From: Nitrospira sp.
GTDB lineage: Bacteria > Nitrospirota > Nitrospiria > Nitrospirales > Nitrospiraceae
NCBI GenBank assembly: GCA_029881435.1
Contig: JAOUMR010000022.1
Location: 1-37,338 of the forward strand
Direction: 5' to 3'
DNA: 37,338 nucleotides
The notes under the pieces were generated by a model. That model was not told the DNA's origin. It searched no databases and worked only from the letters and a program-made list of their open reading frames with translations. Both the position numbers and the translations under genes were made by a program. Positions 24,422-32,734 of the stretch are shown here, piece after piece (the first letter of the stretch is position 1; the number at the start of each line of letters is the position of its first letter).

Positions 24422-25234
24422 ATGGGTTCCCTAGCCGCGATTCCTTATCCAAACATTGACCCCGTCATTGTAGCTCTGGGCCCTATTCAGTTGCGCTGGT
24501 ATGGGCTGATGTATTTGATCGGCCTCACCGCGGCCTACTTCCTAATTCAGCACAAGGTTGCCCGCAAGGAGTTGGCAATTAGGAAGGACCAGATCTACGA
24601 CATGGTCGTCTACGCGGCCTTCGGCGTGTTCCTTGGTGGACGGATCGGTTACACGCTCTTCTACAACTTTTCCTACTACATTCAGAACCCACTGAAACTG
24701 CTTGCAGTATGGGAAGGAGGCATGTCCTTCCACGGCGGGCTCATCGGAACTATTATCGCGCTGATCTGGTTCAGCCGTAGGCACGGAATTCCTGCCTATA
24801 CGATTGCGGACTTGGCGGCTTCTGTGACACCGATCGGATTGGGGTTCGGTCGGATAGGAAATTTCATCAACGGAGAGCTCTTTGGCCGGTCAACCGACGT
24901 GGACTGGTGTATCGTCTTCCCGACCGGCGGCCCAGTGTGCCGCCACCCCTCGCAATTGTACGAGGCGACGTTGGAAGGCCTCGTGTTGTTCACAGCCTTA
25001 TGGTGGATCGATCGGCGCCCGACTCCACCCGGCACGATCTTTTGGACGTTCGTCACCGGCTACGGCATCAGCCGACTCATCGTCGAACTCTTCCGTGAAC
25101 CGGATCAACATCTTGGCTTCATTCTAGGCCCGATTACCATGGGCCAGATTCTCTCTCTGCCCATGGTGCTGCTCGGCATTGTTATGCTCGTCTTGGGCTA
25201 CCAACGAGCTGGCCAAAAGCCTGCCTACTCTTGA
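24422..25234 (+). CDS. lgt: Prolipoprotein diacylglyceryl transferase
   Basis: 270 residues, normal for Lgt, the inner-membrane enzyme that moves diacylglycerol from phosphatidylglycerol to the lipobox cysteine of prolipoproteins. The protein has about seven hydrophobic segments. The catalytic His in MSFHGGLIGT (about residue 104) and the signature GRIGNFINGELFGRSTD starting at Gly143 are present, as is the RHPSQLYE block. An AGGA lies 3 nt before the ATG. Its products would lipidate proteins such as the SBP lipoprotein upstream. It is convergent with the zincin gene. Confidence 0.97.
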   Translation: MGSLAAIPYPNIDPVIVALGPIQLRWYGLMYLIGLTAAYFLIQHKVARKELAIRKDQIYDMVVYAAFGVFLGGRIGYTLFYNFSYYIQNPLKLLAVWEGGMSFHGGLIGTIIALIWFSRRHGIPAYTIADLAASVTPIGLGFGRIGNFINGELFGRSTDVDWCIVFPTGGPVCRHPSQLYEATLEGLVLFTALWWIDRRPTPPGTIFWTFVTGYGISRLIVELFREPDQHLGFILGPITMGQILSLPMVLLGIVMLVLGYQRAGQKPAYS

Positions 25235-25311: not shown

Positions 25312-25695
25312 TCAGTACGGCATCTCGTCATCGTCCAGGCCCACGTGGTGACCAAGTTCATGCACCACCGTGTCGTAGACTTCCTGCACGACTTCTTCAG
25401 GACTTTCACAAAGACGGAGGATCGGTCGGCGATAGATGGAAATCCGTGGAGGTGGCTCACCGCCCGGTCTGAAAAATGAATCGGCCGTCAGCGGCTGACC
25501 TTGATAGAGGCCAAGCAAGTCGTCCTTCTCATCCAGCTCCAAGTCTTGCAAGACATCCTCGGGTGGCTCCTCTTCTACGACCACGGCAATGGACTCTATG
25601 AGCGTGGCGTAGGGAGGAGGGAGGTCCGCAATGGCCTGCTGGACCAGCTCCGCAAAGGCTTCTGAGGAGATAGGTTCTCGCCCAGGTATGTCCAT
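25312..25695 (-). CDS. Zincin-type metallopeptidase (PF06262-like)
   Basis: 127 residues. The C-terminal VYDTVVHELGHHVGLDDDEM holds the zinc motif HExxH with His112, Glu113 and His116, and an acidic tail that may give the third ligand. PILRLCESPEEVVQEVYDTV and a preceding acidic region match the small stand-alone zincin family of unknown substrate. It follows the AddA-like gene by 10 nt and is the last gene of the minus-strand addBA operon. No signal peptide is seen, so it is cytoplasmic. Confidence 0.88.
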   Translation of the reverse strand: MDIPGREPISSEAFAELVQQAIADLPPPYATLIESIAVVVEEEPPEDVLQDLELDEKDDLLGLYQGQPLTADSFFRPGGEPPPRISIYRRPILRLCESPEEVVQEVYDTVVHELGHHVGLDDDEMPY

Positions 25696-25705
25696 ATCTC
25701 ACGAT

Positions 25706-28700
25706 TTACAATTCTATGGCGACGCCACACCGTAGAAAAAGGCAATGGAACCGTGGCTGGGTTCCCAGACTCTGTTTCACAGCAGCCTTGTAGATCTCGC
25801 CTTGCGTTCGGTACTGCTCGGCCCGCGCTGCCGCCTGATCGGCCGATACACCATCTGTCTTGTAGTCGACGATCCAGAGCTCTCCAGCAAGCCGGTATAT
25901 GAGGTCGATGACTCCTTCCATCACCTGCCGATCACCCCATGGGATGATGAACGGAACTTCACGACCAAGGATCTGAGATGATCGCAGGCGTGCATACGCT
26001 TCAGATCGACCAAAAGTCGCAAGAAGATCGTTCGCGGAACCCTCAACCGCTCCGGCGTAGGATTGTTCCTCAGGCCCTAAGGCGGACTGAAGAGCTGAGC
26101 CAACCTGAGCACATAACCCCGAGGGGTCCAGTGCAAAATCCCATCGCTCCAGCACACGATGCGCAATCACACCGACCAACCGTCCAATCGCCGCATCCTG
26201 CCGAACTGAGGTTGGTTCACTTCGGACCGACCCCACCCGTTTGCCCAACCCAGTTGGTGTCAGGTGGTGCAGGGTCTCACGAACCTCGCTCCATCGAGTA
26301 GTCCGTGCCTCCCACAATGCAGCCACCTCCTGTGGATTGATCGATGCCGCACTAGTTCCTCTGTCCTCCCGTCGCCGCGGCCGTTTTCGCTCCAGTGCCT
26401 GGACGACTCGCTGAGGAATCCTACTGGCTCCGATTGTCAACGCCTCCGTCGAGGCATCTCCGATCTCTCCAGCCCCGATATTCCGCAACAGCTCAAAAAC
26501 CGTTTCACCGACCGAGCGGGCGGTGATTCCGCCGGACAACAGTAGTAGCTCTTTGGCCCTGGTCATCCCCACATACAGCACTCGGCGCCGTTCCGCGTCT
26601 TCTCGCAGCCGCAGTTTGTGTTGGACCAGCAACGAGCCAAGCGATCGATGATGCTCCAAGGAGAGCCCATAGGTCCCGCTCGACCAATCGTAGGAGACCT
26701 GAGGCGCACTCCGTTCACGTCCACTCCCCTGATGGAGGCCCGGCAGCACAACAATGGGAAATTCCAACCCTTTGGCCTTATGGATCGTCAACACATGCAC
26801 GGCTTCGAGCGACTCCTCGGCAAGAAGACTCTCAGACTCATCGGGTTGTTCCTCAATCCTGGCGATCATGAGATCGACAAAGCCACTCAGAGTCATGTGG
26901 GGCCGGTCAGCCAAGGAAACAGTCGCTTGCTTCACCTTCATGAGATTGGCCACGGCCTGTTCGCCATGGAGCGATGCAGCGGCCACATCGAGGATCGGTA
27001 GTCGGTCAAAAATCAGCTCGAGAGCCTCGACCAACGGCAGAACAGGGATGGCTCGATGGAGCCATGCCAGATGCTCGTACAGCCGCCGTACAGCATAGGC
27101 CCGGACATGGGGCCACGTCCCGAGGTGCGATGCATGGAGATAATTGAAGTGCCCCGCCTGCTTGAGCTCATAGAGTTCTCGATCCGTGAGCCCTCCGAGC
27201 GACGAACGAAGAAGACCGGTTAAAGCGATCTCATCGTGAGGATGATCCAACACACGTAAGAGATTGACGAGATCGATGACTTCTTGGCGGCGATAGAAAT
27301 GCTTCTCGCCCTCGATGACATAGGGGATATCGTGTCGTCGCAACGCATCGAGGTACGCATCCGCCTGGGTGAGCTTTCTGAACAATAACGCCACGTGACC
27401 TGGCTTCACCGTGGGACGACTGAGAATATCCTCGCTCAGCCAACGAGCCAACACTTCACTTTCCGCTCTCGTTGCCCCAGCCGCATCGAACATTTCATCA
27501 TCGCCATCCGGCGTCGTCACGCAGAGACGAACCCCTGGCTCGATCGAAGGGGGCTTCCGTTGAGGACGGACTTCCAATCGCACATTCGCCGGTTGGACCA
27601 GCGGCCGCCGTTCAAAGAGTCGATCGAAGACCTCGTTGACCGACTCCAAGACCGCTCCATCGCTTCGAAAGTTTGTGGTCAACGTCTCCGCTCTCCCACC
27701 CTCATTCGTGACCTTCTCCACGACTCGATCGAAGGCTTCGATATCCGCACGCCGAAAGGCATAGATCGACTGTTTAGGATCTCCCACGATGAAAAGCTTT
27801 CCCGGCTCAAGGACCATCTCCTGCCACCGGACCGCCTGACTTCCCTGGCGCTCTGAGACGGCCAGGATGATTTCGTACTGCGTGGGGTCCGTATCCTGAA
27901 ACTCATCAACCAACAGAGCACGATACTCTCGTTTGATCCGTTCCCGGACAGACGGATGTTCAAAGAGCAGCGCCCGCGCCCGGGCCAGCAACCCATCAAA
28001 CGAAAGCCATCCTTGCCGAACAAACGTCTCACGAATATTCCGTACCAGCGGAATGAGGAGTTTCAATAGATCGTCCAGAAACGCATGGTCGATCATAAGA
28101 AGTTGTTGCGCGGCCTCGATGAGGGCACCAGCTTCTCTAAAATCATTTTTGTCCCATCCAGCCACAGCACTCCCCAGGTCTTTGCCGAGCCATTCTCGTT
28201 CATCCGTCGTCACATCTTGCCGGCCAACCAACCCCTTGTCTGCCACGAGGCGCAACACCGCCGCTGCAGCGGCGAGCATCTGCTCGACTTTACGGCGCTT
28301 CGGCCTGTCGTGCGCATTCAACAGCTGCTCAGCCCGCGCGTCCATGTGCAGCATCCAATTCGACATCGCCGGCGACACGGTCGTTGAAGCAAGTTGTTGC
28401 TGGAGAGCGTCGAGATCAACCAATTCACTGCATAATGACCAGGCCAACGATCTGACCGCCTCGAGCGTGACCGATGACAAGACCGATCGCCAGAAGGGAT
28501 GATGTTGGCCGACTCGACTCAACTCCTGATCGAGCCAACAATCCCACGCAGCCGTGAACTGTTCTTCAAAGCGCACGCCATCATCTTCCTTGAAATCAGG
28601 ATCGACGCCGCTTTCCAGCGGATGGAGTCGCAACAGATGCGCTGCGAAACCGTGCAGGGTGCCGATCTGAGCTTTTTCTAGCTCATGCAACGCAGTTTGA

Positions 28701-29053
28701 GCGCGGGCGACAATCGCATTGCTACTCAGTCCATACTGCGCTTGAAGATCGCTCCTTGAAACGGCCCCTCCGTCGCTCACTCGCAACGCATCAGCCTGCG
28801 GTTTGGCCAGGGTGGTCAGCCGCTCCCGAAGTCGCACTTTCATCTCGGTCGCCGCCTTGTTGGTAAACGTCAAGGCCACAACCTGCATAATCTGCACTGG
28901 ATTGGGTTCCTTCATCAGTAGATGCACGAGGCGGTTGACGAGCAACGTCGTCTTCCCTGTCCCTGCGCCGGCCACGACCACCACGTTGCGATCGAAGGTC
29001 GTCTCAGCCGACTGTCGTGCCACACGATCCGGTATCAAGAGCTCGTTACTCAT
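25706..29053 (-). CDS. addA: AddA-like UvrD-family helicase-nuclease
   Basis: About 1115 residues of superfamily 1. Walker A is AGAGTGKTTLLV (from residue 29), motif Ia ALTFTNKAATEMK, motif II LLVDEFQDTDPTQYE, motif III GDPKQSIYAFRRAD, motif IV LTTNFRSDGAVLES, motif V VLTIHKAKGLEFPIVVL, and motif VI YVGMTRAKELLLL. The C-terminal end carries a PD-(D/E)xK nuclease with VIDLIYRL and IVDYKTDG. This is the AddA design: an active 3'-5' helicase plus one nuclease for resecting double-strand breaks to load RecA. The frame is open to TTG 29059; ATG 29053 is preferred. It overlaps the end of the addB-like gene by 8 nt, so the two are translationally coupled. Confidence 0.94.
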   Translation of the reverse strand: MSNELLIPDRVARQSAETTFDRNVVVVAGAGTGKTTLLVNRLVHLLMKEPNPVQIMQVVALTFTNKAATEMKVRLRERLTTLAKPQADALRVSDGGAVSRSDLQAQYGLSSNAIVARAQTALHELEKAQIGTLHGFAAHLLRLHPLESGVDPDFKEDDGVRFEEQFTAAWDCWLDQELSRVGQHHPFWRSVLSSVTLEAVRSLAWSLCSELVDLDALQQQLASTTVSPAMSNWMLHMDARAEQLLNAHDRPKRRKVEQMLAAAAAVLRLVADKGLVGRQDVTTDEREWLGKDLGSAVAGWDKNDFREAGALIEAAQQLLMIDHAFLDDLLKLLIPLVRNIRETFVRQGWLSFDGLLARARALLFEHPSVRERIKREYRALLVDEFQDTDPTQYEIILAVSERQGSQAVRWQEMVLEPGKLFIVGDPKQSIYAFRRADIEAFDRVVEKVTNEGGRAETLTTNFRSDGAVLESVNEVFDRLFERRPLVQPANVRLEVRPQRKPPSIEPGVRLCVTTPDGDDEMFDAAGATRAESEVLARWLSEDILSRPTVKPGHVALLFRKLTQADAYLDALRRHDIPYVIEGEKHFYRRQEVIDLVNLLRVLDHPHDEIALTGLLRSSLGGLTDRELYELKQAGHFNYLHASHLGTWPHVRAYAVRRLYEHLAWLHRAIPVLPLVEALELIFDRLPILDVAAASLHGEQAVANLMKVKQATVSLADRPHMTLSGFVDLMIARIEEQPDESESLLAEESLEAVHVLTIHKAKGLEFPIVVLPGLHQGSGRERSAPQVSYDWSSGTYGLSLEHHRSLGSLLVQHKLRLREDAERRRVLYVGMTRAKELLLLSGGITARSVGETVFELLRNIGAGEIGDASTEALTIGASRIPQRVVQALERKRPRRREDRGTSAASINPQEVAALWEARTTRWSEVRETLHHLTPTGLGKRVGSVRSEPTSVRQDAAIGRLVGVIAHRVLERWDFALDPSGLCAQVGSALQSALGPEEQSYAGAVEGSANDLLATFGRSEAYARLRSSQILGREVPFIIPWGDRQVMEGVIDLIYRLAGELWIVDYKTDGVSADQAAARAEQYRTQGEIYKAAVKQSLGTQPRFHCLFLRCGVAIEL

Positions 29054-32000
29054 CGGCAATCTTCTGCGTGCGAAGTGCTCTCAGGACTTTCGGTTCATCC
29101 GCGCGATAGGCCCTCCACCACGTCGGAGCATGTTCTCTTCGGCAGATCACGCGAAATTCGCAATGGTCGCAATAACCATCTGGAATGATGAAAAACTGTC
29201 CTGCTTGAATTCCATCGATCAAGGTCTTGATCGTACGATGGATAAGGGCTCCTGTATTCGATGCCCACGACTTTGTATCAAACGACGAGCGATCGATCAT
29301 GGGGGACCACTGAGGAGCGAGAAACAGGAACTGCACCTGACTCGGTGTCGTCTGTCCGGGAACGGTAAGGCAACCATAGAGTGGCGGTTGCAGCCGATAC
29401 CCACGGACTGCGGACTGGGTTAGGTTACGGTCCTCAGGTTTGATACTCGAACCAAATTTATACTTGTAATCCACCACCCGTAATGCGCCGGAATCCTGAT
29501 TCCGATCGAGCCGATCGATCCGACCACGGATCTTCAACAATTCTCCGTCAAGGAGATCGGGAATCGTCCCTTCCCCATCCACTTCAAAAGCAATAGGCTG
29601 GTACGGATGCTCGGTCTGTTCCGCCTTCAACGCGGCCGTTATAAGGGTCACGACCTGTTCTTTCGCCAGCTCCCACAAGAGATAGTGGCCTGTCCGATGC
29701 TGCGATTCGAGATCTGCCGACGCCTGTTCGACGGACATTCCCATCGTCTGTTGCTTCACATGATCCGTCACATGTTCAGTCGGCCACCCGACCTGCACAA
29801 GTTGCTCATAGCACCGCCGTAATGCAGCGTGACAGAGCGTGCCCACCAGCGTCGCATCCGGTAGTTGCGACAGTGACACACGACTCGGTTCGAGTCGCAG
29901 CACGTCCGAGGCAAAGTATTGGAAGGGACAGCGCGCATACCGTTCGAGGGGGGTTGGAGCAACACCCCGTTTGATGAGACTCTCCCAATGGGACTCGACC
30001 GCTCCGGTCATCCCATCGAAAAGATTCAGCGTGCTGCCCTCCTCCTCGATGCGATCCAGCGCCATCGTCGCATGACGAATCGTATCGGCGTCGCGCCCGA
30101 GCGCCTGTACGAGTTCGATTGGGTCTTGCCCGTTCATAGCCAACCACTGAGTCAGATCACGAGGTGGTAGGAACTGTTTGATCGCCGGCCGTTGCACAAC
30201 TCGATCCGTCAGGCGGAGAGGCACCACATCGATCGGTTGTTCATTGGAACCAAACCGCCGGCGAGCCACATCAAGATACGGAGAGGCCGCTAGCATCCGT
30301 CCAGTTTCATCGGCCCGTTGATAGGAGAGATACAACCTTTGGGAGGCGGCTTGACAGAGCAGGGAGAAAAGCAAACTCTCCTCTCCATAGGCGGTCAATT
30401 TTTCGTCGATCTTGAATCCAAGCGTGGCGTCGAGCACGCGCCGATGATGATCCCTAAGAAAGGCATCTTCCCGGATATATCGCGGAAACACTTTTTCGTT
30501 CAGACCAAGGACAAACAGGGCCTTGAACGGCATCCCGCGAGCTGCCATCACGTCGCGCACCATCACCCCCTGAGATGAGCTGTCTTGAAGAGGTGTGCTT
30601 GTCCTCTCGAAGGTATGCGTCAGCAGCTCGACGAATTCAGCCCAGGTCATCTCCTCGGTGAGCGGCTCTAATTCCAGGAGTGTGATCCAAATACGCTCGA
30701 TAGCGTTCCATATCATCACTCGGTGGTCAGACTGAGCATCGTCAACGGTTGATTCTATTGCATCCGACCGCCGCAGGCGCCGCTCGACGAACGCCCGACA
30801 GGCTGCGACCATCTGCCCGATCGTGCCTCGCGAAGGAAGCGTTGAACAGTCTTCCATGAGTTGTGACACAACCTGCCAGAACAGGCTGATCACCTCCGGC
30901 CCAATCGCGAGTGAACCGCTCAGGCCCTCCTCCCCATCGAGTATCAATGCAGCCTGACTCGCCTGCTCCAGTCTCTTCCACTCCTCGACTCCACGGGTGA
31001 TGTGTAAGGCTTGAACCAGCAGTTTCCATTGCTCGGGGCGATATGACTCCGACTGGTCGTTGGTCAGATCCGTGCCATACAGCGGAGACGTCACGACGTC
31101 GAGAACTGACGCACGATAGAAATCGTTCGACGGTAAAGCGGCCAGCTGCAGCATGAGCTTGCAGATCGGTTCGTGAACTAGTGGTCGCGACGCGGTCGTA
31201 TGGAAGGGGATCCGATGGCGATCGAAGATTGACTGAAGAGAGGGGCTGTACGGATTGAGCACCCGCGCGGTAACACCGATCTCGTCGAATCGATAGCCGT
31301 TGGTTTCAACCAGATCAAGGATCGTGCGGCAAGCTGCCGCCAATTCCTCTTCCACGCCGATCACACTTCTGATAGTCAGCTGGACGGGATGCTCGGCGAC
31401 TTGAGATGACCCTCTTTCCAATCGGATCGTCGCCTCGTTTGGCATCACCAAGGGTTGTATATAGCGATCGAAAAAGCGCCGGGCGAATCCATAGGCCGGA
31501 TCATCCTCCAGCGGGAAAAACAAGGTTGTGTCCTTGACTCGGCTGATGGCTTCAAAGAAAGACAACTGTACCTGCGTTAGATCATAGAACCCGTAATAGA
31601 ACACTCGCGTCAGCGACTGGAGGAACAAAGTAGTCGGGATAAACGGGGTAAGCGCCTGAGCCAGATCGTCTTGCGTACCGACCTCCAGCGTCTTGCCTGC
31701 TTCCTTGACAGCGGCATAAAGCGAGGTCAGTGCACCAAGCCATTCGCGATCGTCTTCCTCGAAATACCCTTCACGGAGACCTTGCAGCGCCTGACTTGGA
31801 TCGACATCGGCATCCCTCAAGTCACGAATCGTGGCCCAGAGTGCCCCCCACGTCCCGGCAGATTGTCCAACTCGTTGTAACGGAGCCTGACTGGAGAGCT
31901 TGCTGCGAACAATGTGTTGAACCAATCGCTCGAAGAACAGCTCATCGACGACTCGCGGCAACGCGTGAGGGGCGGACACCTCTCCAGCCAACCGCAAGGC

Positions 32001-32207
32001 CAGTTGATGAAAGGTCACCACATGCAGATTCAGAAGCGGAATCCGCTGTTCAACGGCGAGAAGCGCACGAATATGGTCGGCTAGGGACTTGGACGGAACG
32101 AAGATCGCGAGTGGCGCAAGAGGATCGGGTGCTTTGGCACGCGTGAGATGCTCGACGAGTGCAGATTCAAGGGTAGGATGAAATCGACCGGTGACGATGC
32201 GGAGCAT
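29046..32207 (-). CDS. addB: AddB-like PD-(D/E)xK nuclease
   Basis: 1053 residues. The N-terminal helicase-like fold is present, but the opening MLRIVTGRFHPTLESALVEH lacks a Walker A GKT/S, so it probably does not hydrolyse ATP. The C-terminal nuclease has GRIDRLD and VVDYKYKFG. The four cysteines of an AddB iron-sulfur staple can be placed: one in RYARCPFQYFASDVLRLEP before the nuclease and three in GYCDHCEFRVICRRE after it (C-x2-C-x5-C). This is the AddB role: the partner that scans DNA and cuts the other strand. It starts 92 nt after the small zinc-ribbon gene, with the repeat element in between. Confidence 0.9.
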   Translation of the reverse strand: MLRIVTGRFHPTLESALVEHLTRAKAPDPLAPLAIFVPSKSLADHIRALLAVEQRIPLLNLHVVTFHQLALRLAGEVSAPHALPRVVDELFFERLVQHIVRSKLSSQAPLQRVGQSAGTWGALWATIRDLRDADVDPSQALQGLREGYFEEDDREWLGALTSLYAAVKEAGKTLEVGTQDDLAQALTPFIPTTLFLQSLTRVFYYGFYDLTQVQLSFFEAISRVKDTTLFFPLEDDPAYGFARRFFDRYIQPLVMPNEATIRLERGSSQVAEHPVQLTIRSVIGVEEELAAACRTILDLVETNGYRFDEIGVTARVLNPYSPSLQSIFDRHRIPFHTTASRPLVHEPICKLMLQLAALPSNDFYRASVLDVVTSPLYGTDLTNDQSESYRPEQWKLLVQALHITRGVEEWKRLEQASQAALILDGEEGLSGSLAIGPEVISLFWQVVSQLMEDCSTLPSRGTIGQMVAACRAFVERRLRRSDAIESTVDDAQSDHRVMIWNAIERIWITLLELEPLTEEMTWAEFVELLTHTFERTSTPLQDSSSQGVMVRDVMAARGMPFKALFVLGLNEKVFPRYIREDAFLRDHHRRVLDATLGFKIDEKLTAYGEESLLFSLLCQAASQRLYLSYQRADETGRMLAASPYLDVARRRFGSNEQPIDVVPLRLTDRVVQRPAIKQFLPPRDLTQWLAMNGQDPIELVQALGRDADTIRHATMALDRIEEEGSTLNLFDGMTGAVESHWESLIKRGVAPTPLERYARCPFQYFASDVLRLEPSRVSLSQLPDATLVGTLCHAALRRCYEQLVQVGWPTEHVTDHVKQQTMGMSVEQASADLESQHRTGHYLLWELAKEQVVTLITAALKAEQTEHPYQPIAFEVDGEGTIPDLLDGELLKIRGRIDRLDRNQDSGALRVVDYKYKFGSSIKPEDRNLTQSAVRGYRLQPPLYGCLTVPGQTTPSQVQFLFLAPQWSPMIDRSSFDTKSWASNTGALIHRTIKTLIDGIQAGQFFIIPDGYCDHCEFRVICRREHAPTWWRAYRADEPKVLRALRTQKIADE

Positions 32208-32218
32208 CTAACTCGGGT

Positions 32219-32296
32219 TTCGTGAAGCGTGAAACGTGAAGCGTACGAATATCGGCATGGTCTGATTCCTCTCGGAATTGCGCTTCACGAACGACG
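32219..32296. repeat. Intergenic repeat with 11-bp inverted ends
   Basis: TTCGTGAAGCG at 32219-32229 is repeated inverted as CGCTTCACGAA at 32281-32291, a perfect 11-bp match. Inside the left arm CGTGAAGCG, CGTGAAACG-like and CGTGAAGCG words follow one another (32221-32243). It lies between the zinc ribbon gene and addB. The outer words recur around 15881-15948, and a CGTTTCACG appears at 21197-21205, so this looks like a dispersed repeat of REP type. Confidence 0.65.
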
Positions 32297-32299
32297 CGA

Positions 32300-32464
32300 T
32301 TACCCGGTCTCAGGCCCCAAGAGCTCGCCGTTACAGTCGACGCAGGCCCAGTCGCCGTCGATGAACGACATGGGATCGGCGCAGATTGGACAATCCGGAG
32401 GAGGCCCCTTGGCAATGAGTGGAAGATCCGGAAGCTCGTTCTCGTTCTCGTCTTCGTCCATCAT
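32300..32464 (-). CDS. Small zinc-ribbon protein
   Basis: 54 residues, below the usual size cut-off. It starts with an acidic stretch (MMDEDENENELPDLPLIAKG) and then has CPIC and CVDC, two CxxC pairs 12 residues apart that make a compact zinc ribbon, ending in NGELLGPETG. The ATG lies 3 nt after the stop of the redoxin gene, so the two are coupled, with an AAGG about 8 nt upstream. Its position just before addB suggests the addAB operon, but its role is unknown. Confidence 0.75.
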   Translation of the reverse strand: MMDEDENENELPDLPLIAKGPPPDCPICADPMSFIDGDWACVDCNGELLGPETG

Positions 32465-32467
32465 CCC

Positions 32468-32734
32468 CTACCCTTCTCTCTGTTTGATCTTCAGTTGAAT
32501 GGCCTTTTCCGCGCTCTCCCGACTGGGAACGCCGACAAACGTCAACTTCCCATCGATAATCGTCGCAGGCACGGCACGGACTGCATGACGGTCGGCCAAC
32601 TCCTGACCATCCTTTGTGGTGATGTCCACTTCCCGATAGGAAAAGCTGTACTTTACACGCAACTGCTTCCACAGACTTTTCGCTGAAGGGCAGGCTCCGC
32701 AACTAGGCGATACGAGTAACGTAATGTTTGGCAT
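32468..32734 (-). CDS. Thioredoxin/glutaredoxin-fold protein
   Basis: 88 residues of the thioredoxin fold. The active site is CGAC at Cys12-Cys15 in LLVSPSCGACPSAKSLWKQL, the middle strand FSYREVDITTKDGQELADRH leads to the cis-proline loop VRAVPATIIDGKLTFVGVPS. It resembles the small MJ0307-type or glutaredoxin-like redoxins that reduce disulfides or carry metal. It begins the redoxin-zinc ribbon-addB-addA-zincin row on the minus strand. An inverted repeat (32741-32748 with 32767-32774) sits just upstream of its ATG. Electron donor and target are unknown. Confidence 0.88.
   Translation of the reverse strand: MPNITLLVSPSCGACPSAKSLWKQLRVKYSFSYREVDITTKDGQELADRHAVRAVPATIIDGKLTFVGVPSRESAEKAIQLKIKQREG

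Follow-up and report, generated by a model that had tools for sequence, protein, structure and literature searches.

The locus lies in a 37,338-nucleotide stretch of DNA from Nitrospira sp. (contig JAOUMR010000022.1), which we refer to in its entirety as the window. Open reading frame calls confirmed five nearly contiguous genes on the minus strand, running from position 32734 down to 25312, as an earlier note on this DNA had described. They encode a redoxin (32468..32734; 88 aa), a zinc-ribbon-like protein (32300..32464; 54 aa), AddB (29046..32207; 1053 aa), AddA (25706..29053, with its ATG at 29053) and a zincin (25312..25695), and the spacings were as given there: 3 nt between the redoxin and zinc-ribbon genes, an overlap of 8 nt between addB and addA, and 10 nt between addA and the zincin gene. 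The widest gap in the block, 92 nt, separates the zinc-ribbon gene from addB and holds an 11-bp inverted repeat (window 32208-32302). Folding of this repeat showed a modest gain over shuffled sequences that was not significant (z -1.43), and a 16-mer taken from it occurs just twice in the genome, so we do not claim a regulatory role for it. A promoter and terminator scan from 24 to 34 kb returned no more sites than shuffles did. In the window, the redoxin and zinc-ribbon genes share one frame across the redoxin stop, an arrangement found in about one third of distinct loci, as expected by chance; fusion or read-through of the two was therefore rejected. Past the zincin gene, on the plus strand and convergent with it, lies lgt (24422..25234; TIGR00544, E 3.9e-77, bits above the cut-off), which stands outside the system and served us as a synteny control.

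The two large genes encode a helicase-nuclease of AddAB type. AddB matches PDDEXK_1 (E 1.5e-31), the profile addB_Gpos (E 1.6e-40) and the AddB chain of Bacillus subtilis (3u44_B, E 1.2e-39), which identifies it as the PD-(D/E)XK nuclease subunit with a four-cysteine Fe-S staple, a feature of AddAB described previously (PMC3466216). The first staple cysteine, C760, sits in a CPF motif (29928..29930, minus strand), and the last three, C1013, C1016 and C1022, lie in CDHCEFRVIC (29142..29171, minus strand) with the spacing of 3u44_B. All four were invariant across 11 AddBs of the order, and the overall pattern, CPF...CxxCxxxxxC, agrees with that of B. subtilis, so that the cysteine set earlier suggested to fit a staple indeed does so. 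AddA combines a UvrD-type helicase (UvrD-helicase, E 2.1e-49; Walker A AGAGTGKT) with a PD-(D/E)XK nuclease (PDDEXK_1, E 6.4e-9; VDYKTD) and matches recB and addA models at E ~1e-80. Scores for both subunits fell far under the NCBIfam equivalog cut-offs (addB_Gpos 139 vs 904; addA_Gpos 266 vs 708; recB 275 vs 696), which indicates a divergent branch; since these models are clade-specific, their cut-offs act as naming thresholds and are no defining trait of AddAB. The defining traits themselves were found: a helicase with a C-terminal nuclease in AddA, a C-terminal RecB-type nuclease and staple in AddB, and adjacent, co-oriented genes, with one exception (L063) in which addA lies ~2.5 kb downstream of addB.

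The redoxin belongs to the thioredoxin/glutaredoxin superfamily, as judged from its Thioredoxin_3 match (E 1.3e-11) and its CxxC motif (CGAC, C12-G-A-C15). Its nearest solved structures are the small archaeal thioredoxins 1fo5 and 1nho, and among phage families (PHROGs) it matches a generic thioredoxin-domain phrog. The 54-residue protein has an acidic tail, the pattern CxxC-x12-CxxCNG and a C-terminus reading GPETG, and would be predicted from its four cysteines to bind zinc. It reached the cut-off of no Pfam or NCBIfam family, and no PHROGs phage family matched it. In 24 diverse sequences, C25, C28, D36, C41, C44, N45, G46, G50, P51 and G54 were invariant, as was the terminal GPxxG. The structure model was confident in the ribbon only (pLDDT ~84-89 there; pTM 0.44), and a fold search with it gave no match at E < 0.001. 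Both open reading frames are genuine genes, given the low dN/dS and the excess of synonymous change: dN/dS of the redoxin was ~0.005-0.018 where computable, with synonymous sites near saturation, and ~0.01 within the genus, and the core of the zinc ribbon showed 0-4 nonsynonymous vs 8-18 synonymous changes. Searching DNA for the variant of the motif with a tyrosine before GP, a pattern that does not cover the window's own order, returned 30 matching stretches among 84,980 species, all labelled Nitrospirae, Nitrospiria or Leptospirillum. This variant was thus found only in Nitrospirota, and more divergent relatives may exist elsewhere. With its extreme constraint, its searched motif found only in this phylum and its lack of a Pfam or NCBIfam match, the small protein is the more interesting loose end of the locus. 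In family f9, its gene stands directly upstream of a lipoprotein-like gene (L105 6191-7849, L106 6020-7684, L107 2810-4466), which in L107 encodes an M48 peptidase with TPR repeats. Two paralogues of the protein, one of which ends in GPEEG, are present in several Leptospirillum-like genomes (L112/L111, L114/L113, L116/L115, L119/L120).

Four of the five genes keep their order across the order Nitrospirales. Of the sampled relatives, 50 genomes had redoxin and AddB on one contig; the distance from redoxin to addB was at most 0.8 kb in 48 of these, and 2.1-2.3 kb in the other two (genus g6, family f2). At the more than 30 loci mapped in families f1, f2 and f3, the order was redoxin, zinc ribbon, addB and then addA, the last usually overlapping. 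Family f2 has a wider gap between zinc ribbon and addB, reaching ~2 kb in genus g6 with open reading frames in between (L061, L062, L064, L152). The block is order-wide in the sampled genomes, so the outcome that the earlier note had named as fatal to its proposal of small AddAB partners, absence of the small genes beside addAB in close relatives, did not occur; the five-gene order whose conservation it proposed to check holds for redoxin, zinc ribbon, addB and addA, and breaks down at the zincin, which is inconstant. Synteny of this kind needs careful reading. In f1 and most f3 loci, lgt also lies just past addA, or past the zincin gene where one is present; it was not found there in the f2 loci mapped. 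We know of no link between lgt and DNA repair. As an unrelated, convergent gene is likewise syntenic, part of the synteny is passive, and neighbourhood alone is weak evidence of function.

The zincin itself is a clear member of Zincin_1 (E 1.8e-30; 105 vs a gathering threshold of 22 bits; HELGHH; 3e11, E 2.8e-20). A gap of 10 nt separates its gene from addA in the window, and many f1 genomes also have it close to addA; on this ground all five genes could be read as one AddAB system, with the zincin processing or removing a component. Its distribution already largely refutes that reading. Although present in all sampled f1 genomes, the gene adjoins addA in only part of them, so that its adjacency to addA is not conserved; in single-contig genomes of genera g12 and g21 it lies megabases from addB. 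None of 18 f3 genomes has it (0/18), and these retain redoxin and zinc ribbon, while many families without this AddAB possess it. A five-gene system with the zincin as processing partner is thus highly improbable.

Another reading takes the redoxin and zinc ribbon as true accessories of AddAB, the former keeping the Fe-S cysteines of AddB reduced or helping to insert the cluster, and the latter chaperoning metal or clusters or docking on AddAB. Their adjacency to addB is near-universal in the order and persists in f2, whose mapped loci lack lgt at this place; the staple cysteines that they might serve are absolutely conserved; and family f4, of the same order, keeps the zinc ribbon and yielded neither redoxin nor an AddB orthologue. 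Each side nevertheless exists without the other. The Leptospirillum-like family f21 has redoxin and zinc ribbon, each at a locus of its own, and its genomes gave no match to AddB. Conversely, AddBA of the same type occurs in families f5, f7 and f20 with neither small gene beside it, addB being present at all of these loci and addA at all but one. The small genes are therefore found neither only with AddAB nor always with it. Claims of absence are bounded by genome completeness, and those for f3, f21 and f7 rest on several genomes each. In f20, a flavodoxin/FMN-reductase-like gene, another redox protein by AddB, lies directly upstream of addB in 5/5 loci (L161 1530-2117, L162 1797-2390, L163 5820-6440, L164 9434-10033, L165 5631-6218).

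The history of the repair genes also weighs against accessories. Within the window's genus, AddBs are 74-87%, 54-62% or 44-46% identical to that of the window, and redoxins 87-99%. In the AddB tree, G108, G016 and G157 group with genera g14 and g19; in the lgt tree, by conflict, G108 falls inside the window's genus. Compared with G012, the flanks in G108 show about 81-88% nucleotide identity, and the interval between them (L219 5001-11205) only scattered stretches at 64-77%. The boundaries of this interval fall within the 3′ end of addA on one side and just within the start of addB on the other, and AddA moves together with AddB. At L130, in family f1, both subunits are closest to those of f3 and the zincin is of f1 type. 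In G276, redoxin and zinc ribbon come first, then a divergent AddAB encoded on the opposite strand, and then lgt (L149 8427-14685), the divergent AddB retaining its staple cysteines. Further loci with exchanged addBA alleles under stable flanks are L054 and L135; the breakpoints of the exchanges lie close to both gene ends. On these sequence comparisons, addBA is replaced as a cassette beneath stable neighbours, with the direction of replacement and the donors being what we infer. Large-scale horizontal transfer of AddAB is known (PMC1193525). Swapping between stable flanks suggests selection, for which phage inhibitors or a change of Chi would be speculative candidates.

Redoxin and zinc ribbon, in turn, do not co-vary with the AddBA alleles, and purifying selection on them is far above that on AddAB. 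Repeated replacement of addBA beside unchanged small genes counts against dedicated partners, although a hyperconserved partner could in principle serve any AddB with Fe-S cysteines, even the divergent one of G276, and the swap in G108 keeps the gene order, so that co-transcription may be preserved. Taken together with the separate occurrences in f21, f4, f5, f7 and f20, these replacements speak against the earlier idea of small AddAB system or cluster partners, and we regard true accessories as unlikely. A variant in which the pair is dedicated to the Fe-S AddB of Nitrospirales as a redox/metal chaperone module, yet generic enough to serve whichever allele arrives by cassette exchange, strikes us as quite improbable; if true, small partners of AddAB would be described here for the first time.

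A different possibility is that the redoxin belongs to nitrite-oxidiser physiology, in electron transport or in haem or metalloprotein maturation, and merely adjoins addBA. Within the class, it occurs in the families with a strong NxrB-like signature (f1, f2, f3); neither f4 nor any of f5-f12 showed it. The UBA2166 family has been reported as the sole Nitrospirales clade without NXR (PMC12342949), and f4 would match it by pattern, the correspondence of our label to that family being drawn from this pattern alone. Common ancestry, probably of a single branch, confounds the association and explains the redoxin distribution equally well. Moreover, f21 has a redoxin homologue without such an NXR signature, and the zinc ribbon is widespread in families lacking it. 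We therefore consider a role in nitrite oxidation rather unlikely.

The explanation that we favour, and hold to be probable, is that an ordinary, allele-swapping AddAB lies beside an independent, hyperconserved redoxin-zinc ribbon pair that acts apart from it. Because each side exists alone and the repair genes were swapped while the small genes were kept, the two small proteins probably serve a purpose of their own next to the repair machine and are not parts of it. Under this explanation, AddBA would be an ordinary helicase-nuclease resecting double-strand breaks, and the four cysteines of AddB would, by homology, form a structural Fe-S staple as in B. subtilis. The redoxin would be a thiol-disulfide reductase with a housekeeping role, maintaining client cysteines in the reduced state, most likely including those of the zinc-ribbon protein, and would act independently of AddAB; the zincin would be a third, unrelated neighbour. 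The locus thus offers an example of how a conserved operon can mislead, its neighbours being kept, yet separable, and the repair genes swapped underneath.

In the open-licence literature, we found no system combining AddAB with a thioredoxin and a zinc ribbon, and the components are best placed by comparison with known families. The zincin resembles Zincin_1 (PF06262; 3e11), a widespread family, in its HExxH motif and in matching the whole domain, and nothing notable sets it apart. With generic four-cysteine zinc ribbons, such as ribosomal eL43/L37Ae, the 54-residue protein shares two CxxC knuckles and weak profile similarity (E ~0.01); it differs in its invariant GPxxG end and in the absence of any significant sequence or fold match. 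The redoxin is like the small archaeal thioredoxins (MJ0307 family; 1fo5, 1nho) in size, in a CxxC towards the N-terminus and in its Thioredoxin_3 profile fold, and differs from them in its CGAC/CSAC active site, in a clade-specific signature and in a TIGR00411 score of 47 vs a cut-off of 93. Finally, with AddAB (RexAB) of the B. subtilis type the locus shares an AddB that aligns to 3u44_B over most of its length and carries the same staple, an AddA with UvrD helicase and PD-(D/E)XK nuclease, and the addB-addA order with overlap. It differs in an AddB N-terminal segment without a GKT Walker A (as seen on comparing the N-termini of 11 AddBs), in its sub-cut-off scores and in the two small genes upstream. 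Ordinary AddAB, for example that of B. subtilis, is not known to need a redoxin or zinc ribbon. The Nitrospira enzyme is ordinary in anatomy and should act as AddAB does elsewhere.
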